DNA from: a virus
Length of the DNA: 64,000 nucleotides
IMG/VR virus record: IMGVR_UViG_3300021964_000021
Location: 55,142-119,141 of that record
Reading direction: 5' to 3' (one strand)
A program made the position numbers and the translations under genes. Of the stretch, positions 28,195 through 44,599 are shown one piece after another (position 1 is the stretch's first letter; each line of letters begins with the position of its first letter). The notes beneath the pieces were generated by a model that saw only the letters and a list, made by a program, of their open reading frames with translations, had not been told where the DNA came from and ran no database searches.

Positions 28195-28197
28195 TAT

Positions 28198-28218
28198 GGG
28201 GGCAATGCCCCCTTTTTT
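28198..28218 (+). terminator. Intrinsic terminator after fibre operon
   Basis: GGGGGC (28198-28203), AAT loop, GCCCCC (28207-28212) and TTTTTT (28213-28218) form a textbook rho-independent terminator. It separates the late fibre operon from the helicase/methyltransferase block. Confidence 0.9.
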
Positions 28219-28256
28219 ATGGTGTATACTTACTGCATACAACGATCTTCGCATTC

Positions 28257-31200: not shown

Positions 31201-31382
31201 GTGAGATCTTTGATAATTCGATCATTCGGTTTTTTGTGGAGAACTATAAGCGGACTTCGGGATTTACTCCAGCTATTAAGAATGCGGAAGTACCTGACAT
31301 CACGAACTATGAGGATCTGCCTGGTCAATTTGGTCTCACCTCAGAAGAACTAAACTACCTCCAACGAATCAATGTCCTCTAA
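28257..31382 (+). CDS. Helicase-adenine methyltransferase fusion (restriction-modification-like enzyme)
   Basis: About 1041 residues from a GTG at 28257. No in-frame ATG exists near the N-terminus; an upstream TTG at 28155 would run through the terminator, so GTG is the best guess. Residues about 148-152 form a Walker A-like site (CRAGKS) and residues about 239-242 are DEAH, giving an SF2 helicase core, with QFAFRGG as a motif VI-like element. Residues about 711-718 (GDPSGSHS) look like a degenerate SAM-binding motif I, and residues 769-772 are NPPY, the adenine-N6 methyltransferase catalytic motif. The C-terminus (YKRTSGFTPAIKNAEVP) resembles the target-recognition end of TaqI/Eco57I-type enzymes. 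The N-terminal 90 residues (IYVDTLKG...NVGET...RHRGRDYG...HEW) could be a GIY-YIG-like nuclease, which is very tentative. Base composition is richer in G+C than flanking genes. Confidence 0.75.
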   Translation: MLNIYVDTLKGSKNSFNVGETHFTWEHRHRGRDYGKAKQVLTQLDSKYVRCAWWENVSTRDDKDHHHDTIIHEWLMTLPGVKKIGQETFEFDLKLYTIEILVQMMEEKFFSGKKKEYVEFVPRPYQQKFLKKIAWCTSNEFLLFAKCRAGKSAMVLKHIVDTNYKVSLVCSRQKSPEGSWKADSNQFFPSVKYISLKDPGWETYLEYWRDRDVNVVLWGTVQTCLKRLDKIKNVDFVAFDEAHIGGNAPEFVQLREALDTRICYISGTAHKLCWMFPDENQKFVYTYFDEQLDVQRGIFKRPKMKVAFAKYQTSAYQEIFGDDPDAMKNIFTMKGTKFLYEDLVREFIHNYFGPQRNIRIGDRLLKGTYHMMALPSVKACHAFQKLVECYYPALVVTSDAKKNQDDINRFLDEHSKALIITQSANVLGVTAEKIDTVINCRGGESIEFWTQFAFRGGSGDHDWWVIDFDAQRCLRAIHTAFQLACDSNPSLSQYSVVDFTNIHEWNDGFQELSKEAFEDALAADVESSISTVTSIVESLDLSGLSDFHLNLKSALTSVVKETQLNDNGANNRSCIERETEIAKKSDDLDTLKKQTVKALLESIPLSMFYIIRNGQNVYSINDVIGSDVYTSVTGDKEGILSEVISKNPQSMELLTRRIGLVSNSIQKSMRQSVSQTINSLSVSSAIQQSIPTTLLDNMIDQCKDMSNTYMFGDPSGSHSARLLERGIDPNRLTVWESCDSHRSRVEYIHKQINVVASHPNMKFTAILANPPYNDPTKKARNNKLWTKVVEQHLEMLAPGGDMCEVTPASVLGNTGKGKKFMKLFSTIYNLKLIDYTADDYFTEGVDICRWHLVNEPYQGKTTVITHDGSFTWDLRDGLPLFGDAAFKHSILEKIANSNHPRIPLKIGQEIANEDYVPDGKYEVFKTGDKIARTNVVPNTGDVLKFIVPFSSSYKKRFISNGFVGMLNVWCPIPSQEEGTRLSEIFDNSIIRFFVENYKRTSGFTPAIKNAEVPDITNYEDLPGQFGLTSEELNYLQRINVL

Positions 31383-31788
31383 GAACCGCCACAACCAACA
31401 GCACGGGTCTAATATTGAACGCTCTGATGAGCGTATTAAGCAGACACAGGAGGTCTTCACTCCAATTGCTCTGATTGAGCAGATGATTCTGGAGATCCCT
31501 GTGTCACAACTGAAGGATCCCGAATCTAAATTCATGGACAACTGTGCTGGTAGTGGTAACTTCCTTGTTTGTCTGTGTGAGATACTGCAGGAATATCACA
31601 GCAGAGATCACATCATCAACAACATGATGTATGCTGTGGAGTTGATGGAAGATAATCACAAAGAGATGTGTAGGAGACTTGACATCCCTACAGATCATCC
31701 GCACTTCGTCTGTGCGGACGCACTTCAGTATCACTACAGGTTTGATGGGACCACAGGACCTGTCACGATGGATCAGTTTGTGGTATAG
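31372..31788 (+). CDS. Truncated or split N6-adenine methyltransferase, SAM-binding half
   Basis: A 138-residue protein overlapping the previous gene by 11 bases. It has motif X (QEVFTPIALIEQMI), motif I (DNCAGSGNF), motif II (YAVELME) and motif III (CADALQYHY) of an N6-adenine methyltransferase. It stops before motif IV (NPPY). A complete motif IV sits in the upstream fusion protein, whose own motif I is degenerate. The two could therefore complement each other as a split enzyme, or this could be a decayed stand-alone methyltransferase. Confidence 0.7.
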   Translation: MSSKNRHNQQHGSNIERSDERIKQTQEVFTPIALIEQMILEIPVSQLKDPESKFMDNCAGSGNFLVCLCEILQEYHSRDHIINNMMYAVELMEDNHKEMCRRLDIPTDHPHFVCADALQYHYRFDGTTGPVTMDQFVV

Positions 31789-31801
31789 TATCTCTATCGA
31801 T

Positions 31802-33037
31802 ATGAGTTCAATGCAACTTCGTCCCCATCAGGCAAAGGCACTTGATGTCATGACTCAGTGGTCAAACGGCATCATTGTGGTCCCTACTGGTGGGGGCAAG
31901 ACCTTTATTGCTATCTCTGATGCTAAACGTGAGCTTGCTACCCCTGGTCGTAAGACTATTGTAGTGGTTGCTCCTCGCTTGCTCCTGGCACAACAGTTGT
32001 CTGCTGAGTTCACTGAGCACATCACTAACGCTGCTGTCTTGCACGTTCACTCTGGTAGTGGATCGCATCACACGACAACCAATCCTGAAGAAATTCGGTT
32101 GTGGCAGGAGTATACTCCTGGTCACTTGTTAATATTTACTACATATCATTCTCTGCATCGTATCCAAGAGTCTAAAATTGATGTAGATGTAGTTTACTTT
32201 GATGAAGCACACAACTCAATCAAGAAGAACTTCTTTGGTCCTACCAGGTTTATCTCTGCTGGTGCTCGCCGCAGTTACTTCTTTACTGCTACTCCTAAGT
32301 ACACTGCCACTTATCGCAAATATGGCATGAATGATCCTATCTATGGTGGAATCATCTATAACGTCCCTGCTACAGAGTTGGTAAAGAATGGTTCTATCCT
32401 TCCCCCTAAGATCAATGCTATTCCTATTGCTGGTCACAGGGAGAAGGGAGAGGATGCTGCACAGGGAGACTGTGATACTCTCCTAGATACTTTGAAGTAT
32501 GAAGACTGCATGGATAAGGTGCTGATTGCAGCACCTAACACAAAGGTTATGATGCGTATGCTTGCAACCACAGACTTCATGTCTGAGGTTCGTGCCTTAG
32601 GTTATGACCTGCTCTGGATCACCAGTAAGCATGGTGCCTTCCACAACGATCAGAAGGTTACTCGTGAGCACTTCTTCAACCTTGTTCGCGCTTTTGGTGC
32701 TGACCCTGATAAGAAGTTTGTTGTTCTCCATTACTCTATTCTGAGTGAGGGCATCTCTGTTCCTGGTCTGACTTCTCTTGTTCTCATGCGACAGATGAAC
32801 GTTATTGAGATGTGTCAGTCTGTTGGACGTGTCATTCGTCTGCACCTGGATGACATTCAAGGTATCAAGCAGGGCACTCTCATCCCTGGTGATACTAAGC
32901 AATACTCCAAACCATTCGGTTTAGTCCATGTTCCTGTCTACAGCAACGTTGGAATCTCCACAGTCAAACGCCTTGAGAAGGTCGTTAACACTGTATTTGT
33001 TCAGGGTCAACCCGCTATTGCCACCATTAAACGATGA
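31802..33037 (+). CDS. SF2 DNA helicase (type III restriction/UvsW-like)
   Basis: A 411-residue protein from the ATG at 31802 (MSSMQLRPHQAKALDVMTQW, the usual Q-motif start of this family). Walker A is VPTGGGKTF (residues about 28-36), DEAH is in VYFDEAHNS (about 130), motif III is FFTATPKY, and motif VI is QSVGRVIR. It resembles the Res-type helicases of type III restriction systems and the UvsW/RadD branch. The close spacing (13 bases) after the methyltransferase half and the matching base composition suggest one functional block. Confidence 0.8.
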   Translation: MSSMQLRPHQAKALDVMTQWSNGIIVVPTGGGKTFIAISDAKRELATPGRKTIVVVAPRLLLAQQLSAEFTEHITNAAVLHVHSGSGSHHTTTNPEEIRLWQEYTPGHLLIFTTYHSLHRIQESKIDVDVVYFDEAHNSIKKNFFGPTRFISAGARRSYFFTATPKYTATYRKYGMNDPIYGGIIYNVPATELVKNGSILPPKINAIPIAGHREKGEDAAQGDCDTLLDTLKYEDCMDKVLIAAPNTKVMMRMLATTDFMSEVRALGYDLLWITSKHGAFHNDQKVTREHFFNLVRAFGADPDKKFVVLHYSILSEGISVPGLTSLVLMRQMNVIEMCQSVGRVIRLHLDDIQGIKQGTLIPGDTKQYSKPFGLVHVPVYSNVGISTVKRLEKVVNTVFVQGQPAIATIKR

Positions 33038-33468
33038 TTGAGTACATACACCACAAGAAGCAGTATCTATTTGCCACTAATGTTAGTTGGCTGGATGTTG
33101 CAAGTCAGATTGAATTAGAGAAGGTTAACGACACTTACAGAGCAATCAGTGATGAGACTGATCTTTGTATTGATTGTGGATGTGTTCCTGGATTTTTGGC
33201 AAACATCTATCAAAAATTCAAAAGAGATTATGGATATAATGCGATGCACATGTACACTTCTCGTAAGATTGGTGCTGAGACACTAGGTAGACACAATGAT
33301 GATCAAGACGTTCTTATTGTGCAGTCAAGAGGTAGGATGACATACAAATTTGATGATAATAATGTGGTAACATTGTACCCAGGTGATGGATTGTATATTC
33401 CCGCCTGGGTACACCACAACCCAATCACCATTGAACCACGAATTACCCTAAGTTTGAGCAGAGGATGA
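33034..33468 (+). CDS. Cupin/JmjC-like oxygenase
   Basis: A 144-residue protein overlapping the helicase stop (ATGA). Residues about 88-140 have the JmjC/cupin-4 pattern: LGRHNDDQDVLIVQ (HxD-like iron ligands), YPGDGLYIPAWVHHNP (second His) and a terminal RITLSLSRG. Such enzymes hydroxylate proteins or nucleic acids using 2-oxoglutarate. It opens the oxygenase-rich cluster. Confidence 0.65.
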   Translation: MIEYIHHKKQYLFATNVSWLDVASQIELEKVNDTYRAISDETDLCIDCGCVPGFLANIYQKFKRDYGYNAMHMYTSRKIGAETLGRHNDDQDVLIVQSRGRMTYKFDDNNVVTLYPGDGLYIPAWVHHNPITIEPRITLSLSRG

Positions 33469-33692
33469 CCACTGACAAAGAACTAAAAGAAATTTACAAT
33501 TTTTACAAAGATTGTGATGAAGGATTTGTTACTAGGGACGGGTATGCCGCTGTCCCACTTATGGGTTCAAAATCCCTTGTAGTAGTGTATAATGGAGAGC
33601 AACTAAAGGTGTGTAGGACTGAGAAGTCTGCTCACACTTTTATCAAAAAACATCGCACCCAAGTCAAAAAAGGAACTGTTTTTGTATCATGA
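33465..33692 (+). CDS. Hypothetical protein
   Basis: A 75-residue basic protein (MTTDKELKEIYNFYKDCDEG...) with no recognised domain, containing a compact VPLMGSKSLVVVYNGEQLKV beta region. It overlaps both neighbours by four bases, so its expression is coupled to the cupin gene. Confidence 0.5.
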   Translation: MTTDKELKEIYNFYKDCDEGFVTRDGYAAVPLMGSKSLVVVYNGEQLKVCRTEKSAHTFIKKHRTQVKKGTVFVS

Positions 33693-33910
33693 TGAACGCT
33701 GATCCACATCCAGATACCCTGGTGACAATCACATGTGACAAGGAAGGTCTGAAGACTATGATTCAAGCATCTATTGCTGCTATTCAGCAAGGAGATAACT
33801 GGAACTTTGGTGACGAGTATGATCTGGATCTCACACCATATCACGATATGCGTGATTCCCTGATTAAAAAGTATGTGGAGGTGTATGGTGACGAAGATAT
33901 CACGATCTGA
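33689..33910 (+). CDS. Hypothetical acidic protein
   Basis: A 73-residue protein (MMNADPHPDTLVTITCDKEG...) rich in Asp and with a helix LKTMIQASIAAIQQG. No family recognised. The next gene starts within its last 26 bases in another frame. Confidence 0.5.
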   Translation: MMNADPHPDTLVTITCDKEGLKTMIQASIAAIQQGDNWNFGDEYDLDLTPYHDMRDSLIKKYVEVYGDEDITI

Positions 33911-34085
33911 GTTGGTACATCTTCAATTGCAGGCGATGCTCAGGGAGAACAAGTTCCCTAGTAGTGAGATTATGTACTGTGGTCAGAGAGAAGGAGAGCA
34001 CTGGTATCTTATTGGCGGTGAACATGAAGTGCCAGTGTCTCAAATTGTAGACATTAATCCAGTAGATGAAGATCAAGAAGTTTGA
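33885..34085 (+). CDS. Small hypothetical protein
   Basis: A 66-residue protein (MVTKISRSELVHLQLQAML...) ending QIVDINPVDEDQEV. The ATG at 33885 is chosen over one four codons upstream. The middle segment GEHWYLIGGEHEVPVSQI looks like a folded beta hairpin. It overlaps both neighbours, and the call rests on its plausible composition only. Confidence 0.4.
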   Translation: MVTKISRSELVHLQLQAMLRENKFPSSEIMYCGQREGEHWYLIGGEHEVPVSQIVDINPVDEDQEV

Positions 34086-34557
34086 AGTCGATGAAAAAGT
34101 AACAGAGTATTTTACTTTGTTATTAAAGGTTTGCATGGCAAAACCTGAAGTAATTGATCATAAGCAGAGCTCTTTATCTCCAAGTTGCTCTGCTACTTTA
34201 AACTTACTCAATTTTAAGATGCCTGAAAAGTTTTATAACTATACTGGCAGATTACTAAGAAAGTCTGAAGAAGTTACTGGTGAGATATTAAGATACCATT
34301 ACATGCATATGGTGGATTATACTAATGGTGGTATAATGTCAGTACACTCACACAAACACAACGAGGACTATAGTTTTATCCTGTATCTTAACGATTGCTC
34401 TGACGGGGATACTGTTCTTCATTTAAAGAATCAGTATAGAGTAACTCCAAAAAAGGGTACTGTTCTATTATTCTCCTCGTTAATTCCACACTCGTCTGAA
34501 TACTCAAAAAGTAAGCAGGTATTTGTGGGTGGTCTTAAAGTAAAACACGAGGTCTAA
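34066..34557 (+). CDS. 2OG-Fe(II) oxygenase-like protein
   Basis: A 163-residue protein. The C-terminal half shows SVHSHKHNEDYSFILYLND (iron-binding His residues near 105-110) and KKGTVLLFSSLIPHSSEY (second His), the double-stranded beta-helix layout of small 2OG oxygenases. The 2-oxoglutarate-binding basic residue would be a Lys near the end (VGGLKV). The last 11 bases of its stop region abut the next start directly. Confidence 0.6.
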   Translation: MKIKKFEVDEKVTEYFTLLLKVCMAKPEVIDHKQSSLSPSCSATLNLLNFKMPEKFYNYTGRLLRKSEEVTGEILRYHYMHMVDYTNGGIMSVHSHKHNEDYSFILYLNDCSDGDTVLHLKNQYRVTPKKGTVLLFSSLIPHSSEYSKSKQVFVGGLKVKHEV

Positions 34558-34749
34558 ATGGATTGGGACAACACCACTAAACTAGAGAAGCGTAAAGATG
34601 CATTTTACATCTTTTATGAGAGTGTATTGAAGCCAGACCATGAGTTGCGTCAAGATGCTCATGAACAGAAGTGTTATCATGAACTGCTTGAATGGCGTGC
34701 AGAAATTATTGAATACCTTGACCGACGAAGGAATGAAGAATTCTATTGA
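34558..34749 (+). CDS. Hypothetical helical protein
   Basis: A 63-residue highly charged protein (MDWDNTTKLEKRKDAFYIFY...) predicted by eye to be almost all helix, beginning immediately after the preceding stop. The next oxygenase gene overlaps its end by 17 bases. Confidence 0.5.
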   Translation: MDWDNTTKLEKRKDAFYIFYESVLKPDHELRQDAHEQKCYHELLEWRAEIIEYLDRRRNEEFY

Positions 34750-35266
34750 TAAGTTTGCTATTCCGTTTTATCAAACAAAGATTGAGAACTGGGAAGAGAA
34801 GAAGCAAAAACTCCTGGACATTTACGATAGATTTGCCCAGGATAATATGGATGAGGGAGAACAAAATTCTGACTTTGAACAGGATAATAACTATCATATT
34901 TTGATTGAGACTATCCTGTTTGATGATATTAAGCGTGCAACAAAGGAACTTGATCTATTCAAGAGAGCACCGAGAGTTGCTAATGCATGGTTCCAAACCT
35001 ATGACTTAGCACACTCTCATGCCCTCCATAATCATGGATTGGGTAATCTTAGTATGGTCTGCTATATAATGTATGATCCTGAGCATCATAGACCAACTAC
35101 TTTTGTAGCACCATTCATGAGTCTTACTGACGGTAATATTATGGAATGGGAACCAGAAGGCGTTGAGGAAGGAACTTTAGTCATGTTCCCTTCTGGATTG
35201 GCACATTATGTACCAACAAACCAGTCTGATGTCAGAAGAATGATTTTATCTGCAAATATAGGGTAA
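34733..35266 (+). CDS. 2OG-Fe(II) oxygenase (PF13759-like)
   Basis: A 177-residue protein from ATG 34733 (MKNSIDKFAIPFYQTKIENW), chosen because family members begin with such an IPxYxxxI strand. Motifs are SHALHNHGLGNLSMVCYIMY (His ligands) and GTLVMFPSGLAHYVPTN followed by DVRRMILSANI, giving the second His and the 2-oxoglutarate Arg. All expected catalytic elements are visible, unlike in the gene at 20246. Its stop overlaps the radical SAM start by one base (TAATG). Confidence 0.7.
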   Translation: MKNSIDKFAIPFYQTKIENWEEKKQKLLDIYDRFAQDNMDEGEQNSDFEQDNNYHILIETILFDDIKRATKELDLFKRAPRVANAWFQTYDLAHSHALHNHGLGNLSMVCYIMYDPEHHRPTTFVAPFMSLTDGNIMEWEPEGVEEGTLVMFPSGLAHYVPTNQSDVRRMILSANIG

Positions 35267-36084
35267 TGTTAAAAGTACCTCATGAAATTCAGTTGCATTT
35301 GACTCACTCATGTAATCTTACATGTGAGGGATGTACTCACTACATGAATCAGGGGCACTCTGGTAAGGTTAGTATAGAGACTGCAACTGAATGGTTTGAT
35401 CAATGGAACGATAGGATACTTCCAAAAAGAATTACATTGATGGGTGGAGAACCAAGTCTTCATCCAGATCTTACTGAGTTTGTATATCTGACCAGAGAGA
35501 AATGGCCACATTCTTATATTGAGATTGTGTCTAATGGATTCTTTTTGCACAAGCACGGGAATCTTCCTGTAGCATTGAAGGAGACTAATACGACACTTGC
35601 AGTGTCTGTTCATGATGACAGTCATCCAACTTATCGTGAGAAGTTTGAACCAATCTATAGGTTAATGAAGAACTGGATTGATTTGGGCGCTCCAGTTGAG
35701 ATGAGACCATCTGTCATCCATTGGTTGGCACAATACAAGGGTTTTGGTGATAAGATGGAACCCTTTGAGGATAATAACCCCAAAGCAAGTTGGAAGGCAT
35801 GTGTATCAAGATTGTGTGTGCAACTGCATGAGGGTAAGTTATGGAAGTGTCCTGCATTAGCGTATCTTCCTATGCAGGCAGAGAAGTATAACTTGTCTGA
35901 GAAGTGGAATCCATATCTAAAATATATTCCACTTCATCATGATTGTACTGCAGAAGAACTAAAAAACTTCTTTACTCGTAGGGAAGAATCATTCTGCTCC
36001 ATGTGTCCTGCTACTGAGCAATATTTTAAACCAGAAAATCCTTTGTTACCTGTGAGTTATTGGAAGAAGAAGTATGATACTTGA
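35266..36084 (+). CDS. Radical SAM protein, paralogue 1
   Basis: A 272-residue protein with the radical SAM cluster motif C16-x3-C20-x2-C23 (SCNLTCEGC) and the GGEP motif (LMGGEPSLHPDL). A C-terminal Cys set (ACVSRLCVQ, WKCPALAY, FCSMCPA) suggests a SPASM-like auxiliary iron-sulfur cluster, as in enzymes that modify peptides or small molecules. The paralogue at 39144 has every Cys of the core and most of the C-terminal motifs. The substrate cannot be deduced. Confidence 0.85.
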   Translation: MLKVPHEIQLHLTHSCNLTCEGCTHYMNQGHSGKVSIETATEWFDQWNDRILPKRITLMGGEPSLHPDLTEFVYLTREKWPHSYIEIVSNGFFLHKHGNLPVALKETNTTLAVSVHDDSHPTYREKFEPIYRLMKNWIDLGAPVEMRPSVIHWLAQYKGFGDKMEPFEDNNPKASWKACVSRLCVQLHEGKLWKCPALAYLPMQAEKYNLSEKWNPYLKYIPLHHDCTAEELKNFFTRREESFCSMCPATEQYFKPENPLLPVSYWKKKYDT

Positions 36085-36829
36085 TGGTGAATTACTAGAT
36101 CTTTTAGAAAAACTTGCAGACAAAGCAGGAGTATCTCCTTCAGACCGTCTGGATGAGATAATAAGAGATGAATACTATAGAATCAATAGAATAATACCGC
36201 AACAAGTATCTACAGATCCTTATTGGAGAGACAATAGGGATGTGGAATACTTCCATTTTTGTGGTAATACAATTTACAGGGCATATAATATGCTCAGTCG
36301 CCATCATATGGATAATCTTTTGGATGATATTGATGATGAGTTAAGATTTAGTAAAGATAAGTGGGACAGATCTGTAGAGGCAACAAATGGATTGCCGCAA
36401 AGGAAATTAAGACACTTTACCAGTTGGTATGTGTTTTTTAGTATGGTAAAGAAGCACCTTCACAACTATGCGAGGATAACAAATAATCCCAGAGTAAAAG
36501 AATATAAGGTCCAATCATATTGGGCGAAGAGAATGAAGGGTACAAATCCAGAAGATTATAATAATGAACTGGATATAAATTATAGGAACAGTCATAGTCA
36601 TGAGAACTTTGACCTGGGAATGATATACTATCTTAATAATCCATCAAGAATGTTTGGAACACTGATTGAGAATCAAGATAGAGAGATTATTGTTCCAGGT
36701 GATGAGAACTCTCTTCTCATTCATCATTCGCACATTAATCACCAACCAGTAATGCCTCCAAAGCAGATTGCTAACAAGTATTACAGGTGTGTTCTTGTTG
36801 TTGACTTTATGCATCCCTCAAAAATATGA
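36074..36829 (+). CDS. 2OG-Fe(II) oxygenase-like protein
   Basis: A 251-residue protein. The first 160 residues are helical and polar. The C-terminal part holds NSHSHENFDLGMIYYLNNPS and GDENSLLIHHSHINHQPVMP, followed by YYRCVLVVDF with the Arg. This is the layout of the PF13759-type oxygenases with a long N-terminal extension. It overlaps the radical SAM gene by 11 bases, suggesting that the two act on the same substrate. Confidence 0.55.
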   Translation: MILDGELLDLLEKLADKAGVSPSDRLDEIIRDEYYRINRIIPQQVSTDPYWRDNRDVEYFHFCGNTIYRAYNMLSRHHMDNLLDDIDDELRFSKDKWDRSVEATNGLPQRKLRHFTSWYVFFSMVKKHLHNYARITNNPRVKEYKVQSYWAKRMKGTNPEDYNNELDINYRNSHSHENFDLGMIYYLNNPSRMFGTLIENQDREIIVPGDENSLLIHHSHINHQPVMPPKQIANKYYRCVLVVDFMHPSKI

Positions 36830-37059
36830 ACGCTTCTGACAGGATTAAATACTTTAGTATAGTATCAAAGATAAACAAGGGTCGGCTTGATGATATTAAT
36901 CCAGACGAATTTGCCTGGTTGCAAAAAAACCCAAACATTTTGAAGGATATGAATCTAACAAGAAAAAAAGAAGAGATCCTACAAAAATCTATGGGTTGTC
37001 AAGGTACTGTAGAAGAGATCCTATTTTCTTTAGACTTGTCAGATAGAATGTATCGGTGA
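36826..37059 (+). CDS. Hypothetical protein
   Basis: A 77-residue Lys/Asp-rich protein (MNASDRIKYFSIVSKINKGR...) with the segment PDEFAWLQKNPNILKDMNLT. No family recognised. It overlaps its upstream neighbour by four bases and ends within the promoter of the HNH gene. Confidence 0.5.
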   Translation: MNASDRIKYFSIVSKINKGRLDDINPDEFAWLQKNPNILKDMNLTRKKEEILQKSMGCQGTVEEILFSLDLSDRMYR

Positions 37060-37065
37060 TATAAT
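37036..37065 (+). promoter_or_regulatory. Sigma70-like promoter before HNH endonuclease
   Basis: TTGTCA (37036-37041, five of six consensus) and TATAAT (37060-37065, perfect) are separated by 18 bases and lie just upstream of the HNH gene at 37087. Confidence 0.6.
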
Positions 37066-37086
37066 GTCCTTAATGCCCTTGCCAGT

Positions 37087-37563
37087 ATGGAACATCTCAA
37101 GATACAACCACACCAGACAGTATTAGTTCTTAATTCTAGCTACGAACCAATCAACTTTACTAATTGGAGGAGAGCAGTTGTTTTAGTTCTAAAAGATAAG
37201 GTACAGGTTCTATCGTCAAGGGTTGTTAGATTGTTGACTTATATTAGAATTCCTGTGAGGAGTATCATGCAGAATCGTCCAACCAGAAGTCAGATTTATA
37301 AGAGAGATAAAAATTCATGTCAGTATTGTGGAGCAACTACTAGACTGACTATTGATCATGTTATTCCAAAAAGTAAGGGTGGTCAGGATACTTGGGAAAA
37401 TTTGGTAGTCGCATGTTCTTCATGCAACGTTAAAAAAAGTGATAAATTACTTGAGCAGACTAAACTAAAACTCAGGAAGGAACCAAGAGCACCATTTAAT
37501 ACAGTTGCTATTGACCTTGCAGAATCCAATGTCCCTGAATGGAGGGAGTACAGTTACACCTAG
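37087..37563 (+). CDS. HNH endonuclease
   Basis: A 158-residue protein. The N-terminal half (VLVLNSSYEPINFTNWRRAV) is the typical start of free-standing phage HNH proteins. Residues about 78-116 contain CQYCG, TIDHVIPKSKGG, NLVVACSSCN: the His/Asn/His core framed by two zinc-binding CxxC pairs. It has its own promoter, so it may be a homing-type insertion into the oxygenase cluster. Confidence 0.85.
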   Translation: MEHLKIQPHQTVLVLNSSYEPINFTNWRRAVVLVLKDKVQVLSSRVVRLLTYIRIPVRSIMQNRPTRSQIYKRDKNSCQYCGATTRLTIDHVIPKSKGGQDTWENLVVACSSCNVKKSDKLLEQTKLKLRKEPRAPFNTVAIDLAESNVPEWREYSYT

Positions 37564-37571
37564 GAGATGAG

Positions 37572-38126
37572 ATGTTCTTTCGTAAATTGAATGAGAAGTT
37601 TGTAATTGATCATTACAACAAAACTGGCAAGAAGATTGAATATGGGTTGGATAGTCCCATAGGTTTTATGGGAATTAAGTATTCATATATCAATACTACT
37701 AATGATGAGGATCTTCTGCAGGTAATTCCTAGAGAGTATAGGTCTCAGTGTACTTTTTCATTGATGGAATTGAACTATCAGATTCCTCCTCATACTGATA
37801 GTGATATTGAAGCAATTATTAATTTCTATATTAGTACGGATGATTGTATCACTCAGTTCTATTATCCTCCAGATGATAGTGTTCCCCGTCAACAGATTGA
37901 CAACCAGACTGATGGTGCTATATTCCATGAAGGATATTTGAAGAAGGCAGTTAGGTTCATGGCAAAACCTGGTGATGCATATCTTCTGGACGTATCAAAA
38001 CCACACTCTGTTATTCCAACTAATCCTGGGATTACAAATCGTAAGTGTGTTTGTCTACAGATTCTGCATAAGTCGTTTGATGAAGCTGTAGAGATGCTTA
38101 AATCTACTGGTTATATTGATGATTGA
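37572..38126 (+). CDS. 2OG-Fe(II) oxygenase
   Basis: A 184-residue protein from ATG 37572 (MFFRKLNEKFVIDHYNKTGK). The motif IPPHTDSDIEAIINFYIS gives a clear HxD iron triad start, and KPGDAYLLDVSKPHSVIP then NRKCVCLQI give the second His and the Arg. An upstream ATG at 37539 would overlap the HNH stop; the internal one is preferred because it has GAGATGAG just before it. Confidence 0.7.
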   Translation: MFFRKLNEKFVIDHYNKTGKKIEYGLDSPIGFMGIKYSYINTTNDEDLLQVIPREYRSQCTFSLMELNYQIPPHTDSDIEAIINFYISTDDCITQFYYPPDDSVPRQQIDNQTDGAIFHEGYLKKAVRFMAKPGDAYLLDVSKPHSVIPTNPGITNRKCVCLQILHKSFDEAVEMLKSTGYIDD

Positions 38127-38640
38127 GATTATCGATGATTATCTACCTCAACGTGAATTTGAGAACATTCGTTCATATTTTGAAGGTGATACTGATGATG
38201 GGACATTGAATGGATCATGTTCATGGGTATTCTTTCCTGGATGTGTTGGATTGAATGATCCAGATGACCATTTTCATTTCACTCATTTAGTATTTGCTCA
38301 GCATAGCATCCTTAGTCCTGCATTTAATTTGATGACACCAATCATCAAGAAGGAGGGTATGTCATCTATCGCTAGAATAAAGGTAAATTGTGTCATTAAG
38401 ACTGAGAAGTTAAAAGTTCTTATCAAAGGATTTCATACTGACTTCCCACAAACATTAACAACAGGCATATACTACATTAATACCAATGATGGGTATACCT
38501 TGTTTGAAGATGGGACACGATGTGATAGTGTTGCGAATAGATTTTGTAGATTCCCATGCACTACAAGACATACTGCTACAACATGTACCACAACTGATCG
38601 TAGACTACTAATCAATTTTAATTATTCAACATATGATTGA
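38116..38640 (+). CDS. 2OG-Fe(II) oxygenase, tandem paralogue A
   Basis: A 174-residue protein starting inside the previous gene's end. Motifs are FHTDFPQTLTTGIYYINTND (HxD), FEDGTRCDSVANRF, TRHTATTC (second His) and DRRLLINFNY (Arg). This is the layout of prolyl-4-hydroxylase-type phage dioxygenases. The next gene repeats the whole architecture. Possible substrates include proteins or nucleobases. Confidence 0.7.
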   Translation: MMIEIIDDYLPQREFENIRSYFEGDTDDGTLNGSCSWVFFPGCVGLNDPDDHFHFTHLVFAQHSILSPAFNLMTPIIKKEGMSSIARIKVNCVIKTEKLKVLIKGFHTDFPQTLTTGIYYINTNDGYTLFEDGTRCDSVANRFCRFPCTTRHTATTCTTTDRRLLINFNYSTYD

Positions 38641-39154
38641 AGTCATTGATGATTACCTGGATGCAGAGATGCATAGTGATTTGTATAATTACTGGACAGG
38701 TAATTATGACAATGGTGATATTGCTAATTCATGTGTATGGACATTTAACAATGGTATAAATGCTCCTGGAGATGGTCATTCTCAATACGTTCATTTAATT
38801 TACTCAAAGCATCATATTATTAGTAATGCATATAATATTGTAGAACCAATAGTTGACAAGGAGGATATGAGTGCGATTGCTAGAATAAAGGCGAACGCAA
38901 TCAGTCAGACTGAAGAATTAGTTGTATTTGATTGGGCATTTCATTGTGACTTTGGTCCCCATGCAGATAATATGTTGACTGGTATATACTATGTTAATTC
39001 AAATGATGGATACACTCTGTTTGAAGATGGATCTAAAGTAGAGAGTGTAGCAAACAGATTTGTTAAATTCCCTGCTACCATGATGCATACTGGAACATCA
39101 TGCACAGATGACTACAGGAGAATAGTTATCAATTTTAACTATTATGCAATTTAA
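38633..39154 (+). CDS. 2OG-Fe(II) oxygenase, tandem paralogue B
   Basis: A 173-residue protein overlapping paralogue A by 8 bases. Equivalent motifs are FHCDFGPHADNMLTGIYYVN, FEDGSKVESVANRF, MMHTGTSC and YRRIVINFNY. The two copies differ most in the N-terminal 70 residues, so they could have diverged in substrate choice after duplication. Confidence 0.7.
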   Translation: MIEVIDDYLDAEMHSDLYNYWTGNYDNGDIANSCVWTFNNGINAPGDGHSQYVHLIYSKHHIISNAYNIVEPIVDKEDMSAIARIKANAISQTEELVVFDWAFHCDFGPHADNMLTGIYYVNSNDGYTLFEDGSKVESVANRFVKFPATMMHTGTSCTDDYRRIVINFNYYAI

Positions 39155-39995
39155 TACTAAGCAGATAGAACTACATGTAACTCATGCATGTAATTTTACA
39201 TGTGAGGGTTGCTCTCATTACTCCAATCATGGATACTCTGGTAACTTATCTTTAGATACTGCTAGAGAATGGCTATATAATTGGAGTCAAAGGGTGGTGC
39301 CTGATACATTTGTCATCCTAGGTGGAGAACCAACATTAAACGAAGAGTTAACAGAGATTGTATATCTGGTTAGGATGATATATCCTGACCCATCAACTAA
39401 GATTGATTTAGTATCAAACGCTAGTTTCTTACATAAACACCCTAGACTCCCTCAAGCACTAAAAGCAACACAAACAAACCTAGCGATATCGATTCATAGC
39501 ACTAAACATAAAGATTATGTAAGGAGGTTCAAGAGAGGATATAAATTAGCAAAGGAATGGAAGCATAATTTGGGTGTACATGTAGAGTTTTGGGACTTTA
39601 CAAATACCCATTGGATACCTCAGTACAAGGGATATGGTAATAACTTTATGCCATATGAGGATGACAATCCTAGATTAAGTTGGGAGAAGTGTGTATCTAA
39701 ACATGCTATGCAAATACATGAGGGTAAGTTATGGAAGTGCCCTGCACTAGCATATCTCCCTATGCAAGCAAACAAGTATAATCTGAGTCAAAAGTGGGAT
39801 CCTTATCTAAAATATGAACCATTGAGTTTAGACTGCACTGACGAAGAGTTAAAAGAGTTTTTGAGTAGAGAGGACGAATCGTTCTGTTCTATGTGTCCAG
39901 CAAACAAGACCGAACCTTACATCAAACAAGATCCAACATTACCTGTTAGTTATTGGGAGAAAAGATATGATAACATGGGGGATATCATCGAATAG
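39144..39995 (+). CDS. Radical SAM protein, paralogue 2
   Basis: A 283-residue protein with the cluster motif ACNFTCEGC (C16, C20, C23), LGGEPTLNEEL, and the C-terminal set ENCVSKH-like KCVSKHAMQ, WKCPALAYLPMQ and FCSMCPA. The segment KLWKCPALAYLPMQA is the same as in paralogue 1, so they are recent duplicates. It lies directly after the oxygenase pair and overlaps the carbamoyltransferase start. Confidence 0.85.
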   Translation: MQFNTKQIELHVTHACNFTCEGCSHYSNHGYSGNLSLDTAREWLYNWSQRVVPDTFVILGGEPTLNEELTEIVYLVRMIYPDPSTKIDLVSNASFLHKHPRLPQALKATQTNLAISIHSTKHKDYVRRFKRGYKLAKEWKHNLGVHVEFWDFTNTHWIPQYKGYGNNFMPYEDDNPRLSWEKCVSKHAMQIHEGKLWKCPALAYLPMQANKYNLSQKWDPYLKYEPLSLDCTDEELKEFLSREDESFCSMCPANKTEPYIKQDPTLPVSYWEKRYDNMGDIIE

Positions 39996-41391
39996 TCACA
40001 ACGCTGCTCTAGCAGTGTTTTCTAATGACTCTCTCATGTTTGCTAGTCAAAGTGAACGTTTTAGTAGAAAGAAGAACGATCCATATATTTGTGAAGAACT
40101 GATTCATCATGCATTAAAGTATGGTGAACCTGAACTAATTTGTTGGTATGAGCAACCACTTAGGAAGAAGTTGCGACAAATTAGGGCGGGTCAAGGGATG
40201 TTCCAAGATAACTTCACCAAATACTTTAATTGTAAGCATAAGTTTATTGACCATCATTACAGTCATGCTTGTGCTGGATACTTCACTAGCAAGTTCCAGA
40301 GTAGTGCTATTCTTGTGATTGATGGTATTGGTGAGACAACTACTATGAGTATTTGGTCTGCCAAAGGTAGTAATATTAAGCAGTTATGGAAGCTCAAGTA
40401 TCCAAATAGCATTGGTCTCTGGTATTCTGCAATGACTCAACGTTGTGGATTTAAACCAAATGAAGAAGAATACCTAATGATGGGTCTATCAGCATATGGT
40501 AATGGTGGAGAATATGTTGGTAAGATTATGAGTGAATTGATTGGGATGGATTTTGAGTGCAAACAAAACATGCATAGGGGGATAGGTGACTGGCAACCAG
40601 AGGCATCTCCTGAGGAGATCGCTGCTGCATCTCAAACTGTTTATGCTACTTTATTTTGTAATGCACTCTCCCTCACAAAAAGATTGACTGGTAGTGATAA
40701 CATTGTAATTATGGGTGGGTGTGCATTGAATTGTGCTGCAAACACACATGCATATGACTTCTTTAAACGAGTGTGGATTATGCCAGCACCAGATGATGCT
40801 GGATCTGCTATTGGTGCGGTGCTTGCCCATAAGAAGATAAGAATACCATTCACTCCCTACTTGGGATACAAGATTCTACAAAAGGATACTAATGCTTCAA
40901 TCGTTGAATACTTGAGGTATCATAAGGTATGTGGTCTTGCTAGGGGTAGAGCAGAGTTTGGACCCAGAGCACTTGGTGCCAGGAGTTTGTTGGCAGATCC
41001 AACAGTTCATAACATTAAGGATGTTGTCAATACTATTAAGAGAAGGCAATCATTCCGACCATTCTCACCTGTGGTTCCGATTGAATATGCTTCAAAATAT
41101 TTTGATATGCATGATGACATGGTAGAGAGTCCATTTATGCAGTACACTGTTAAATGCAAAATGCCAGAGTTGTTACCTGGAGTGGTGCATGTTGATGGGA
41201 CCAGCAGGGTGCAGACAGTGAAGAAGACTGATACACCAAGATTGCATGATTTGTTACTTCGTTGGGGTAAAGTATCTGGCCATCCAGTGCTTCTTAATAC
41301 CAGTTTAAATATCAAGGGGCAACCGATAGTCAATGATGAATATGATGCTGGGGTTTGGTCTGAGACGCATGGCATAAGAGTATTCCAATGA
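39967..41391 (+). CDS. Carbamoyltransferase (NodU/TobZ family)
   Basis: A 474-residue protein. The N-terminus (ITWGISSNSHNAALAVF) and the motif FIDHHYSHACAGYF are those of the YrdC-independent N-terminal Kae1-like domain that handles carbamoyl-adenylate. NIVIMGGCALNCAANTH and EFGPRALGARSLLADPT are further family signatures. Such enzymes transfer a carbamoyl group to a hydroxyl on sugars or other small molecules. Neighbouring hydroxylating oxygenases could create that hydroxyl, which is inference. The start overlaps the radical SAM gene by 29 bases. Confidence 0.85.
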   Translation: MITWGISSNSHNAALAVFSNDSLMFASQSERFSRKKNDPYICEELIHHALKYGEPELICWYEQPLRKKLRQIRAGQGMFQDNFTKYFNCKHKFIDHHYSHACAGYFTSKFQSSAILVIDGIGETTTMSIWSAKGSNIKQLWKLKYPNSIGLWYSAMTQRCGFKPNEEEYLMMGLSAYGNGGEYVGKIMSELIGMDFECKQNMHRGIGDWQPEASPEEIAAASQTVYATLFCNALSLTKRLTGSDNIVIMGGCALNCAANTHAYDFFKRVWIMPAPDDAGSAIGAVLAHKKIRIPFTPYLGYKILQKDTNASIVEYLRYHKVCGLARGRAEFGPRALGARSLLADPTVHNIKDVVNTIKRRQSFRPFSPVVPIEYASKYFDMHDDMVESPFMQYTVKCKMPELLPGVVHVDGTSRVQTVKKTDTPRLHDLLLRWGKVSGHPVLLNTSLNIKGQPIVNDEYDAGVWSETHGIRVFQ

Positions 41392-42101
41392 ACATTTACG
41401 AACTTGAGGATAGACCTGATCAAAGTGGTTCTTGGTTTGACCAAGATAGTAAGGAACTGTTTGTAAAGAATGCCAAGTCACAACCAGCTAGTTGGAGATA
41501 TAGGAATATTGGTGTCAGTTATCGGTTGAATTCTATGGGATATAGAACTCAGGAGTTTGATCGTATTCCATGGCACAAGTGTATTGTTTTGTTTGGATGT
41601 TCTTATGTTTTTGGTGTTGGATGTGAATTAAGTTCAACCATTGCTGCACAGTTAAGTGGAATGACTGGTCGTCCAGTTATCAACATGGGAGCACCTGGAT
41701 CATCTCCTATGTTCTCTCTACATAACTCTGCTAAGCTAAAGGCACTATACCCAGAACCACTTGCAGTGGTGTTCTCATGGTCTTCATCTCAAAGATGTCC
41801 ACTATATTTGAATGATTCTGTGGTTCATTGTGGTCAGTGGAAAGAAGACATTGGTGGACTTGGTAAAGCATGGAGAAGATTTGATCATCATAATGAAGAG
41901 CATCTAAGAATGACAAGGTTGACCGCACAGATGATGTGGAGCAGTACAAAATACTATGACTTTACTCTTTACCCGTCAAATAGGAAGGCAATAGATTGTG
42001 ATTACATTAAACAAGTAGATACTGCTAGAGACTTAGTACATTCTGGTATTGTGACTAATGAGATTATTGCGAAGAAGATTGCAGAATCCCTTGATATGTG
42101 A
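41388..42101 (+). CDS. SGNH/GDSL-like hydrolase domain protein
   Basis: A 237-residue protein. CIVLFGCSYVFGVGCE (residues about 65-80) is the block I nucleophile region, with Ser in GCS rather than GDS; VINMGAPGSSPMF is block II/III-like. The final Asp-His pair of block V is not clear, so the activity may be esterase-like or lost. It overlaps the carbamoyltransferase by four bases, and such proteins often accompany acyl or carbamoyl sugar modification. Confidence 0.6.
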   Translation: MNIYELEDRPDQSGSWFDQDSKELFVKNAKSQPASWRYRNIGVSYRLNSMGYRTQEFDRIPWHKCIVLFGCSYVFGVGCELSSTIAAQLSGMTGRPVINMGAPGSSPMFSLHNSAKLKALYPEPLAVVFSWSSSQRCPLYLNDSVVHCGQWKEDIGGLGKAWRRFDHHNEEHLRMTRLTAQMMWSSTKYYDFTLYPSNRKAIDCDYIKQVDTARDLVHSGIVTNEIIAKKIAESLDM

Positions 42102-42128
42102 TAAAATCGAGACAGTCAGGAGAATAAA

Positions 42129-42290
42129 ATGACAAAGAAAACTTTTACTGGCAAAGGTGGAGAGACTTGGGAGTGGGAAGAGACTCCTGAGACTGTCGAA
42201 GCACTTAAGAATCTCCACAATTCCCTTGTCAACAATCGAGTAAACAGACCCCATCCCTATAAGAATGAACAAAGCACCACTAACTCCTGA
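42129..42290 (+). CDS. Small hypothetical protein
   Basis: A 53-residue protein (MTKKTFTGKGGETWEWEETP...) preceded by CAGGAGAATAAA, a good ribosome-binding site. Its last 26 bases overlap the following gene. No domain recognised. Confidence 0.55.
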   Translation: MTKKTFTGKGGETWEWEETPETVEALKNLHNSLVNNRVNRPHPYKNEQSTTNS

Positions 42291-42492
42291 AGAAGTACAA
42301 GAAGCAGCGAATCAGTTCTTCCCTCTGTTTGATATTGTTCTTAGGAACATGCCAGAGGGATCTAAAACTGAAGATACCCTAAAGGTTATGGAGACAGTTT
42401 GTGGTCTCGCACATAAAATGAGGGCAGAGAGAGAAGAAGAATCTCTCCCCTTTGGATTTAACAAAAAGAAAGATGACGGAACAGAAGACTGA
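42265..42492 (+). CDS. Hypothetical protein
   Basis: A 75-residue acidic protein (MNKAPLTPEEVQEAANQFFP...) of mostly helical character, ending in a charged tail (FGFNKKKDDGTED). I associate this style of protein with cyanophage small gene clusters but cannot assign a function. Confidence 0.55.
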   Translation: MNKAPLTPEEVQEAANQFFPLFDIVLRNMPEGSKTEDTLKVMETVCGLAHKMRAEREEESLPFGFNKKKDDGTED

Positions 42493-42775
42493 GACCAAAA
42501 ACAAAGCACGCCTTCAAGATTCCTTTGGTGGAACTGTTGAGAAGGACATTCCCGAAGATGTAGAGTGGATTGATGATGCGTTCTACATCAAAAAGACTCG
42601 CTTTGGTATGCACACCAGTATTCTAAAAGATCCCTTGGGACAACACTTTATCACTGGAATGGAGTATGATACTGTTCTCAGTGTGACTCGTTGGCGTCTT
42701 AAAGCATTACAAGAAGGTAATCTTGATGAATATACTCGTGTTGTAAATAGTGGGGTTGTTGGAGGCAAACTATGA
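42473..42775 (+). CDS. Hypothetical protein
   Basis: A 100-residue protein (MTEQKTETKNKARLQDSFGG...) from the ATG at 42473; an earlier TTG is possible. The middle contains EWIDDAFYIKKTRFGMHTSI, a mixed beta segment. It overlaps both neighbours. Confidence 0.5.
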   Translation: MTEQKTETKNKARLQDSFGGTVEKDIPEDVEWIDDAFYIKKTRFGMHTSILKDPLGQHFITGMEYDTVLSVTRWRLKALQEGNLDEYTRVVNSGVVGGKL

Positions 42776-43011
42776 AACCAACTGAAAACTATGAACAATT
42801 GATTGAGCGGTTCACTAAAAGAACTGCTCAACTTACTGCTAGGGCAGATGAGTTGTACGAAGCATACTCTGAATATGTGAAGATTCAAGAAGATCTTGCA
42901 CGATTGACAGGTTCACTACAAGTAGCAGAGTATCTTGCACATGGTAAATTACCAGGTGATGGTAACCATGATGGTATGAAGGATCACCAACCTATGAGGA
43001 AATGGCGATGA
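42772..43011 (+). CDS. Hypothetical coiled-coil protein
   Basis: A 79-residue protein (MKPTENYEQLIERFTKRTAQ...) whose first 55 residues form an amphipathic helix suited to dimerisation. It overlaps the following 26-residue frame by four bases. Confidence 0.5.
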   Translation: MKPTENYEQLIERFTKRTAQLTARADELYEAYSEYVKIQEDLARLTGSLQVAEYLAHGKLPGDGNHDGMKDHQPMRKWR

Positions 43012-43088
43012 GAAAACTAATTAATAAGGTCAGAGATTTTATTCAAAGGTTTAGGAACAAAAACCGTGACCCATTCATCTACAAGTGA
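43008..43088 (+). CDS. Very short basic peptide gene
   Basis: A 26-residue basic peptide (MRKLINKVRDFIQRFRNKN...) beginning with an ATGA overlap. Spacing fits the coupled gene train, and the peptide is an amphipathic cationic helix, but a frame this short could be fortuitous. Confidence 0.35.
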   Translation: MRKLINKVRDFIQRFRNKNRDPFIYK

Positions 43089-43239
43089 TTACCCATACCA
43101 TGAGTTAGATCCTACTACACCATGGTATGAATGGTTAATGTATTGTGAGATTTGCCATCAGTTAGATGTAAAAGATCAACCACGACTGGGTAGATTCATG
43201 GCATATCGTCGTTACCTTAAATACATGGGGATTATATGA
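43066..43239 (+). CDS. Small hypothetical protein with GTG start
   Basis: A 57-residue protein read from GTG 43066: VTHSSTSDYPYHELDPTTPW, then YEWLMYCEICHQLDV and RFMAYRRYLKYMG. The aromatic-rich composition and fit between neighbours (overlaps of 23 and 4 bases) support it. A CxxC pair could bind metal. Confidence 0.5.
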   Translation: MTHSSTSDYPYHELDPTTPWYEWLMYCEICHQLDVKDQPRLGRFMAYRRYLKYMGII

Positions 43240-43472
43240 AACAAAATCCATATTGGTTTTTTGAGAAGTGGGGAATTAAAGAACAACCACCAATCAATAA
43301 TATTCTTGATAAAGTAGAAGAACTTGAAGAACGAGTAAAGTATCTTGAGTTGGAACGAGTCGGTTTAATTAATGATTTGTATGAACTTGAGAACAGACTT
43401 CAAGCACAAATTGACAAACATCACCCTCCAACGTATAATTTGGGGGAGAATTATTCTCTAGGAGACAAATGA
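43236..43472 (+). CDS. Hypothetical coiled-coil protein upstream of talC
   Basis: A 78-residue protein (MKQNPYWFFEKWGIKEQPPI...) with a heptad-like helix from about residue 25 to 60 (KVEELEERVKYLELERVGLI). It overlaps the talC start by four bases, so it is co-translated with transaldolase. Confidence 0.55.
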   Translation: MKQNPYWFFEKWGIKEQPPINNILDKVEELEERVKYLELERVGLINDLYELENRLQAQIDKHHPPTYNLGENYSLGDK

Positions 43473-44143: not shown

Positions 44144-44145
44144 TC

Positions 44146-44328
44146 ATGTATGAAGAACTAAATTGTTTTGAAGAAGCACTGAAGCACTTTGGCACCCGTG
44201 TTGAGATCATCACTGCTATGGAGATGTCTAAGAAACTTTCTCCTGAAGATGCTTATCAGTTGATTAAGGATGAACTGAAGGAAGTGAAGAAATGTCGTAA
44301 ATTGTTTAACAAGAACAATGACTGCTAA
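44146..44328 (+). CDS. Hypothetical helical protein
   Basis: A 60-residue protein (MYEELNCFEEALKHFGTRVE...) starting two bases after talC. Two helices separated by KLSPEDAYQLI and a basic C-terminal CRKLFNKNNDC. No family assigned. Confidence 0.5.
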   Translation: MYEELNCFEEALKHFGTRVEIITAMEMSKKLSPEDAYQLIKDELKEVKKCRKLFNKNNDC

Positions 44329-44593
44329 AATCTATGAGTCACCTGATGGTGGCAAGACAGTTTATATGCGTGAGATGGGTAGTGATGAACCACGTCGTCA
44401 GATCTACCCTGATCTCATGAATGAAGTTCAGGCAACATCACCATATAATGATGGGTGGACACAGAAATTCTATAGAGAACAGTGGCCACCTTTTGTACCC
44501 GATGGGTTTAAAGATCAGTATGAGAACTATCAAGCAGTTCTTGCAGATGGTTGGGAGTTCACTGATGATGGATTCTGGATTAAATGTACTTAA
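44318..44593 (+). CDS. Hypothetical protein
   Basis: A 91-residue protein (MTAKIYESPDGGKTVYMREM...) with an aromatic-rich C-terminus (ADGWEFTDDGFWIKCT). It overlaps its upstream neighbour by 11 bases and ends at the late promoter of the collar genes. Confidence 0.55.
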   Translation: MTAKIYESPDGGKTVYMREMGSDEPRRQIYPDLMNEVQATSPYNDGWTQKFYREQWPPFVPDGFKDQYENYQAVLADGWEFTDDGFWIKCT

Positions 44594-44599
44594 TAAATA
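44591..44599 (+). promoter_or_regulatory. Late promoter (TAATAAATA) for tail-collar genes
   Basis: TAATAAATA, followed by a second AAATAAA, lies about 30 bases before the first collar gene; AAGGAAG is its likely ribosome-binding site. Confidence 0.55.

Follow-up and report, generated by a model that had tools for sequence, protein, structure and literature searches.

The window, that is, the complete 64-kb stretch of DNA that was analyzed, is part of a 119-kb contig of a T4-like cyanophage, a virus of marine cyanobacteria that is known solely from metagenomes. Positions 33034–42101 encode seven oxygenase-like proteins (one cupin/JmjC-like and six of the 2OG type by motif), two radical SAM (rSAM) proteins, a NodU/TobZ-type carbamoyltransferase (CTase), and an SGNH-like protein, and the reading frames largely overlap (Table 1). 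This gene set had been proposed in an initial annotation and was confirmed, as every named gene is open at its position, and the starts at 34733 and 37572 agree with the N-termini of homologs. An HNH gene and several small ORFs, which were absent from that annotation, are interleaved among the cassette genes. The cassette adjoins genes for a UvsW-like helicase and a methylase-like protein, and a GT11 gene is also present within the window.

Table 1. Coordinates of the cassette genes and of flanking signals in the window
Feature	Position	Strand	Evidence
cup1, putative cupin/JmjC-like (RoxA-like) oxygenase; accessory	33034..33468	+	PF08007, phrog_4992, HND motif
ox2, 2OG-Fe(II) oxygenase-like	34066..34557	+	PF13640 at cut-off
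ox3, 2OG-FeII_Oxy_5-like; accessory	34733..35266	+	PF13759, phrog_81; start backed by homologs
rSAM1, twitch-type radical SAM protein	35266..36084	+	PF04055; CX3CX2C and C-terminal Cys
ox4, divergent 2OG-like protein; follows rSAM1 among the cassette genes	36074..36829	+	HxH...H...R; weak fold matches
h77, small protein directly 3′ of ox4; partner or possible peptide substrate	36826..37059	+	motif TIEEIL-x-L-x-L
HNH endonuclease; inserted, probably unrelated	37087..37563	+	PF01844, 63.7 bits
ox5, 2OG-like oxygenase	37572..38126	+	HTD...H...R motif; 32/32 contigs
ox6, 2OG-like oxygenase	38116..38640	+	phrog_274; HTD motif
ox7, tandem paralog of ox6 (49% identical)	38633..39154	+	phrog_274, weak PF13640
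rSAM2, twitch-type radical SAM protein, rSAM1 paralog	39144..39995	+	SpeY best solved relative
CTase, NodU/TobZ-type O-carbamoyltransferase; 29-nt overlap with rSAM2	39967..41391	+	PF16861, PF02543
SGNH-like hydrolase/acyltransferase; ATGA overlap with CTase	41388..42101	+	invariant G-x-S, DxxH
Strong terminator-like hairpin between tail-fibre unit and cassette side	28198..28212	+	6 G-C pairs, then T run
Late-promoter-like ATAAATA upstream of next tail-fibre-like gene	44593..44599	+	same place in relatives checked

An exact search of window positions 28200–44590 for ATAAATA yielded no match, and the cassette is thus devoid of this late-promoter motif. That the cassette and the tail fibre form one late operon was rejected in view of the terminator-like hairpin at 28198 and the lack of a late motif after it.

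The assignment of seven oxygenase-type genes was borne out by Pfam and phrog matches together with motifs. In Pfam, cup1 matched JmjC_2 (34.8 bits, cut-off 22) and ox3 matched 2OG-FeII_Oxy_5 (37.7 bits, cut-off 27); ox2 was at the cut-off for 2OG-FeII_Oxy_3 (27.0 bits), and ox7 was below it for Oxy_3 (23.1 bits). Both ox6 and ox7 matched phrog_274 (E 6e-39 and 2e-37, respectively). No usable family match was found for ox4 and ox5 among the Pfam and phrog profiles. Inspection of motifs revealed HxD or HxH plus a distal His in all oxygenase-like proteins, with an apparent Lys in ox2 at the position where the 2OG-binding Arg is expected. The HxH...H...R core of ox4 is conserved across its family, and the top PDB matches of its fold model, which is of low confidence (pLDDT 56.5), are nearly all 2OG oxygenases. 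Both results make it probable, rather than proven, that ox4 is an oxygenase.

The two rSAM proteins are indeed paralogs with additional Cys, being 55% identical and having in common CX3CX2C and five further conserved Cys. The CX3CX2C motif and GGEP are invariant in 14 rSAM sequences, and so are C183, C199, C231, C248, and C251, the Cys of a predicted twitch auxiliary [4Fe-4S] cluster. In a phylogenetic tree, rSAM1 forms its own clade (support 100/99). The best PDB match of the rSAM profile was SpeY (E 1.8e-14), which was matched across both domains, whereas other matches covered mainly the radical SAM core. SpeY was also the top match for the fold of rSAM2 over the full length (E 1e-10, TM about 0.6), and the next different enzyme was four orders weaker. 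SpeY is a radical SAM dehydrogenase of the twitch type from the spectinomycin pathway and acts on a small-molecule sugar. SpeY (PDB 7WZV, 7WZX, 7X0B) resembles the phage proteins in its CX3CX2C core, the C-terminal auxiliary-cluster Cys, and its length, but the identity is only about 20%, and in the phage two diverged paralogs occur side by side and are flanked by 2OG oxygenases. BlsE was rejected as the closest solved relative because its match was far weaker. Viperin was rejected as well, since the likeness to viperin and prokaryotic viperin is confined to the core and is sub-threshold (38–42 bits, cut-off 180), while full-length sequence and fold match SpeY.

Further paralogs of the rSAM proteins were found in sugar contexts. 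In G004 and G009, two contigs in which cassette genes are present as well, they are located directly or closely upstream of the genes for GDP-mannose 4,6-dehydratase and GDP-L-fucose synthase. In contig G017 and in the isolate S-SCSM2R, a paralog has a DegT aminotransferase gene on one side and an amidinotransferase gene on the other, beside glycosyltransferase-like genes; the amidinotransferase of G017 matches StrB (PDB 1BWD, E 1.6e-62). These paralogs belong to a different clade from rSAM1 and rSAM2.

The CTase contains both a Carbam_trans_N and a Carbam_trans_C domain, and the scores of 165.5 bits for PF16861 and 125 bits for PF02543 are far above the cut-offs of 27 and 24, in agreement with its initial assignment. 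The cut-off of 1000 bits of the NodU equivalog model was not reached (138 bits). Relatives in the PDB are NovN-type enzymes, GdmN, and TobZ, which act on hydroxyls of antibiotics. NodU, TobZ, NovN, GdmN, and phrog_1601 ("Nol-like carbamoyltransferase", E 7e-97 with the cassette enzyme) also have both domains, and the GRxEFGPRALGxRS motif is common to them and the cassette CTase. The cassette enzyme is a short form of 474 aa that is coupled to rSAM2 and SGNH, while other cyanophage copies are longer (1.5–1.8 kb), and no radical SAM partner of these was found in the available part of the source (PMC3037559). In the CTase tree, the window enzyme falls into a 14-row clade with support of 100/100; the 5hmC enzyme discussed below is on a branch of length 10, its placement is unreliable, and it was left out of the argument. 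The initial annotation of the SGNH-like protein is supported by S72 (block I G-x-S) and by D215 and H218 (DxxH), which are invariant in 16 sequences, and no Pfam or PDB match was obtained. A CTase adjoining an SGNH gene recurs in other lineages. The same contig encodes three further CTases, one of which is adjoined by a set of ADP-heptose genes (for an HldE-like kinase and adenylyltransferase and an HldD-like epimerase).

Linkage was quantified for the 32 rSAM1-containing contigs in IMG/VR that have enough downstream sequence. The second rSAM gene and ox5 were present in all of them, ox4 followed rSAM1 in 31, SGNH was retained in 31, and CTase in 23. In 8 of the 9 contigs that lack CTase, the rSAM pair is kept and rSAM2 lies directly beside SGNH. 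Carbamoylation therefore looks like an optional last step and not like the core of the pathway. Where enough upstream sequence was available, ox2 preceded rSAM1/ox4 in most contigs. Other genes vary: cup1 and ox3 are missing in the L010/L014 groups, cup1 is present in only some related contigs, ox6/ox7 occur in 0–3 copies, and the HNH gene is missing from L151/L156-type contigs. The dN/dS values of 0.02–0.14 for the genes tested indicate purifying selection, and together with the gene order conserved in many contigs they argue for more than chance. Co-occurrence in related phages had been named at the outset as a test, and the genes travel together, contradicting a random distribution. Among 50,697 isolate phage records, two matches were found for rSAM2, and no relative was detected for ox4, h77, and SGNH. 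A scan for cellular relatives was uninformative as a guide to function; it returned L029, which is probably a misassigned phage contig, L031, a weak fragment, and L030, an rSAM from Acidobacteria whose C-terminal region is cupin-like.

The gene identities, the conserved linkage, the purifying selection, the nearest solved relatives, and the sugar contexts of the rSAM paralogs are direct observations, from which we infer substrate, reaction order, and final location. The cassette is likely, with a probability of about 60%, to serve sugar or glycan tailoring and to operate in the manner of the tailoring steps in an aminoglycoside pathway. This reading is favored because the rSAM proteins are closest to SpeY and their paralogs occur in GDP-fucose and aminotransferase/amidinotransferase clusters; the GT11 gene, the ADP-heptose set, the action of the CTase relatives on antibiotic hydroxyls, and the CTase-SGNH pairing in other lineages were counted as further support. 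One or more 2OG oxygenases would hydroxylate the substrate, and the two SpeY-like rSAM proteins would abstract a hydrogen from a carbinol C-H and oxidatively convert a sugar hydroxyl into a ketone, or alternatively carry out a related deoxygenation or epimerization. The TobZ/NodU-type enzyme could then add a carbamoyl group to a free hydroxyl, and the SGNH protein may remove or transfer an acyl group. The most likely target would be a glycan of the virion, and the host envelope is a less likely one. This target would be assembled by glycosyltransferases and nucleotide-sugar enzymes that the host or other parts of the phage genome encode. Hydroxylation followed by carbamoylation of a common substrate, as originally suggested, is still plausible given the co-occurrence of the genes, but the cassette can do without the CTase. 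A more specific version, in which an oxidized, carbamoylated aminoglycoside-like sugar is made with the dedicated rSAM pair and attached to the virion (less likely to DNA), with a lineage-dependent carbamoyl step, is tentative and rather less probable; antibiotic-type sugar chemistry would in that case serve as viral decoration.

Several points count against sugar tailoring. The identity to SpeY is low, and, to our knowledge, carbohydrate specificity is not common to all twitch enzymes. No glycosyltransferase or sugar-nucleotide gene was found inside the cassette, and the rSAM proteins of the sugar clusters are of another clade. The missing late promoter argues against a virion target, as virion-modifying enzymes might be expected to be late. 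Seven oxygenases exceed the obvious need of a sugar pathway, and cyanophages in any case frequently encode 2OG oxygenases (PMC3037559, PMC9146016).

DNA bases had been listed beside a glycan and a small peptide or metabolite as candidate substrates, and they are now disfavored relative to a sugar or glycan. In a DNA hypermodification pathway, a 2OG oxygenase would hydroxylate a base, the rSAM proteins would remodel it, and carbamoylation would follow, as in 5-carbamoyloxymethylcytosine. A phage-borne carbamoyltransferase of the same superfamily that acts on 5hmC in DNA is known (MetaGPA, PMC8670742) and provides a precedent. In about 30 other phage contigs, CTases of about 50% identity are flanked by a Toprim (primase-like) gene on one side and a DnaB-like helicase gene on the other, and the location of the cassette beside the UvsW-like helicase and methylase-like genes and its lack of a late promoter fit as well. 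Nevertheless, the cassette CTase is only 24% identical to the 5hmC enzyme and has G and R instead of its C and T at two reported specificity positions: at TobZ G421/R423, as mapped in this analysis, it reads GARS like typical family members, whereas the 5hmC enzyme reads CNTT. A thymidylate-synthase/dCMP-hydroxymethylase homolog, the partner in the 5hmC system, was found in none of 24 records, several of them of 200–246 kb and G000 being a partial contig, with a search whose control was positive in 9 of 14 genomes; no TET/JBP match was obtained in G000 or other cassette records. The CTase residues and these two negative searches led to rejection of 5hmC-type DNA carbamoylation as the leading idea, and as the CTase is optional and the rSAM contexts are sugar contexts, DNA modification in general is unlikely. 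A RiPP-like modification, in which rSAM proteins and oxygenases act directly on h77 or a virion protein, is likewise unlikely. The small h77, which was recovered directly 3′ of ox4 with its motif across related contigs and is devoid of isolate-phage relatives, would suit it; moreover, many rSAM homologs are peptide maturases, the cup1 fold includes protein hydroxylases, and prolyl hydroxylases rank first among the weak fold matches of ox4. However, the best full-length rSAM relative is a small-molecule sugar dehydrogenase and not a peptide maturase, the h77 C-terminus is lost in L151-type contigs that retain the rSAM pair and CTase, and no Cys/Ser/Thr-rich core, protease, or transporter was seen.

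The enzyme types would also fit aminoglycoside tailoring that yields a diffusible, antibiotic-like or signalling small molecule from a host metabolite during infection. This is very unlikely, as neither a transporter nor a resistance gene nor an enzyme that builds a scaffold was recognized within the cassette, and there is little obvious benefit to a lytic phage. Finally, the oxygenases might have gathered beside uvsW for DNA repair or 2-oxoglutarate drawdown, with the rSAM, CTase, and SGNH genes as unrelated neighbors; cyanophage 2OG oxygenases are numerous and are reported near uvsW (PMC9146016, PMC3037559). The co-occurrence of the cassette genes makes such an absence of a pathway highly improbable: rSAM1, ox4, ox5, rSAM2, and SGNH stay linked over large divergence, while cup1, ox3, HNH, and talC come and go.

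Sugar pathways encoded by phages are already known, as is DNA modification. Phage-encoded sugar chemistry also occurs in the LPS/glycan clusters of the cyanophages P-SSM2, S-SM2, and S-SSM7 (PMC3037559) and in S-SCSM2R, in which an rSAM gene is found together with glycosyltransferase, DegT, amidinotransferase, and 2OG genes. In contrast, the window cassette lacks glycosyltransferase and DegT genes and has the rSAM pair, oxygenases, CTase, and SGNH. No virus with a pair of twitch-rSAM-dehydrogenase-like proteins together with 2OG oxygenases and an O-carbamoyltransferase was described in the literature searched. Should the sugar tailoring reading be true, antibiotic-type sugar chemistry would be available from marine viruses, and it would become possible to test what many so far unexplained cyanophage 2OG oxygenases and NodU-type carbamoyltransferases do, as the location of rSAM paralogs next to genes of the GDP-fucose and StrB-like types points to a class of substrate. 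Additional 2OG-type proteins are encoded on the same contig outside the cassette.

Judged by its gene content, the source virus is a T4-like cyanophage. The window (G000:C1:55142-119141) is part of a virus record of 119,141 bases, the remainder of which is L026-L028; inspection of the contig revealed psbA-, psbD-, petE-, PTOX-, zwf-, talC- and ThyX-like genes together with T4 structural genes, and gnd was found by Pfam. The initial annotation had described a cluster of oxygenases, two radical SAM (rSAM) enzymes, a carbamoyltransferase (CTase) and an SGNH-like protein. This observation was correct, and family searches and motifs bore out the gene labels, with the reservations that ox4 is only a probable oxygenase and that the SGNH-like protein has no Pfam or PDB match. 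Many neighboring genes of the cassette overlap by 1-29 nt. The small ORF h77 adjoins the 3' end of ox4 in related contigs; it is sometimes larger, with a repeated TIEE-L motif.

Positions of the cassette and of further features (window coordinates unless a locus is named)
Feature	Position	Strand
Cassette: cup1 (cupin/JmjC-like), ox2, ox3, rSAM1, ox4, h77, HNH, ox5, ox6, ox7, rSAM2, CTase, SGNH	33034-42101	+
h77	36826-37059	+
ATAAATA upstream of structural-region genes	5706, 13526, 22144, 44593	+
Terminator-like hairpin	28198	
Methylase-domain protein and small methylase-like ORF	28155-31788	
Sigma-70 consensus promoter	43411-43439	
GT11-family gene	55545-56672	
Beta-ketoacyl synthase	62212-63402	
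ADP-heptose-type set: HldE-like adenylyltransferase and kinase, capsule-type phosphatase, cupin, HldD-like epimerase	L028:361-2963	-
Further carbamoyltransferase-family genes	L027:16533-18329, L028:5594-7222, L028:13185-14318	
Tandem Cys-rich proteins	L027:10938-13354	
CTase in two frames, AG-345-D19	L024:10549-12026	
Toprim/DnaB-side CTase (example)	L052:6912-10912	
rSAM fusion, Acidobacteria MAG	L030:10004-11572	

Sequence comparison indicates that selection maintains the cassette as a unit. A scan of IMG/VR for rSAM2 relatives yielded 20 loci, and the order rSAM1, ox4, ox5, rSAM2, CTase, SGNH was unchanged in those with sufficient flank. Reciprocal scans used CTase, rSAM1 and ox4 as seeds. 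Co-occurrence was counted in the 32 of 36 rSAM1 contigs that had at least 6.5 kb downstream; the counts are not independent because many contigs are near-identical. The second rSAM and ox5 were present in all 32, ox4 was the next cassette gene in 31, and SGNH and CTase were found in 31 and 23, respectively. In one group lacking CTase (L156, L157, L161-L166) rSAM2 still adjoined SGNH, and another without rSAM1 (L188-L190, L192-L194) retained ox4. cup1, ox3, HNH and talC were variable among related contigs. Comparison with two relatives gave dN/dS values of 0.02-0.14 for eleven genes. A tblastn search of 50,697 phage records detected no relative of ox4, h77 or SGNH in isolate phages, and rSAM2 relatives in two records, including S-SCSM2R; by this evidence, isolated phages do not carry the cassette. 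PAHT02000089.1 (L029), a contig placed in a Rhodobacteraceae MAG, is related to the window's phage and is probably a binning misassignment.

rSAM1 and rSAM2 fell into separate supported clades of the tree, which makes the duplication an old one; most contigs retain both copies. Eight cysteines are invariant in the alignment. The family profile matched SpeY, a twitch radical SAM dehydrogenase from the spectinomycin pathway, at profile positions 4-248, most of its length (E 1.8e-14); the remaining PDB matches were much weaker and covered mainly the core. A good structure model (pLDDT 79.8, pTM 0.83) also had SpeY as its top fold matches (E about 1e-10, TM about 0.6, with a high rmsd probably caused by domain placement), and the next different enzyme was four orders of magnitude weaker. 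An Acidobacteria MAG encodes a fusion protein that combines a relative of the cassette rSAMs with a C-terminal region bearing cupin-like motifs.

The cassette is assigned to sugar chemistry chiefly on the genomic contexts of rSAM paralogs. In G004 and G009, two records that also contain cassette genes, a paralog is found a short distance upstream of the genes for GDP-mannose 4,6-dehydratase and GDP-L-fucose synthase. The neighbors of a paralog in G017 and in another record, isolate S-SCSM2R, include glycosyltransferase-like genes, a short DegT-type aminotransferase and an amidinotransferase; the G017 amidinotransferase has StrB from streptomycin biosynthesis as its best PDB match (E 1.6e-62). 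A coherent sequence of steps there would be oxidation to a ketone, then transamination, then guanidinylation. In the marine single-cell virus AG-345-D19, a CTase in two reading frames, C-terminal part first, overlaps a distant rSAM. The window's own contig encodes a GT11-family protein and, near a second CTase outside the window, an ADP-heptose-type set whose HldE and HldD scores are under the strict equivalog cut-offs. In all, this contig has three carbamoyltransferase-family genes outside the window, one with the N-terminal domain only.

Sugar or glycan tailoring is the favored interpretation, with a probability of about 0.6; its substrate, reaction order and location are inferred. Peptide or protein modification comes first among the alternatives and is itself improbable, followed by the likewise unlikely modification of DNA. 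The window CTase is, by its sequence, a NodU/TobZ family member, and CTases about 50% identical to it have a Toprim (primase-like) gene on one side and a DnaB-like helicase gene on the other in about 30 contigs of other phages (within L052-L111, IMG/VR), so a role near replication, and a link to DNA, is possible for the wider family. However, the window CTase is 24% identical to the 5hmC carbamoyltransferase and has GARS instead of CNTT at the positions reported as diagnostic (PMC8670742). The 5hmC pathway also requires a thymidylate-synthase homolog, which was found in none of 24 records; four of these records span about 200-246 kb and two are complete isolates. Synthesis of a diffusible metabolite is very unlikely, and a coincidental grouping of the genes is the least likely explanation.

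ATAAATA, the late-promoter motif, occurs seven times in the window, always on the plus strand and more rarely than expected by chance; four copies are immediately upstream of structural-region genes. The stretch 28200-44590 contains no copy, and there is a strong terminator-like hairpin downstream of the tail-fibre gene. The cassette therefore probably does not belong to the late genes, which counts against a simple role in virion assembly but is not decisive. A perfect sigma-70 consensus promoter (TTGACA-17-TATAAT) precedes the talC-like gene. A big protein with an Eco57I-type methylase domain is encoded ahead of a small methylase-like ORF, both immediately upstream of a UvsW-like helicase. 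Outside the window, three tandem paralogous Cys-rich proteins are possibly structural, and within it the phage contig encodes a full-length beta-ketoacyl synthase with both Pfam domains.
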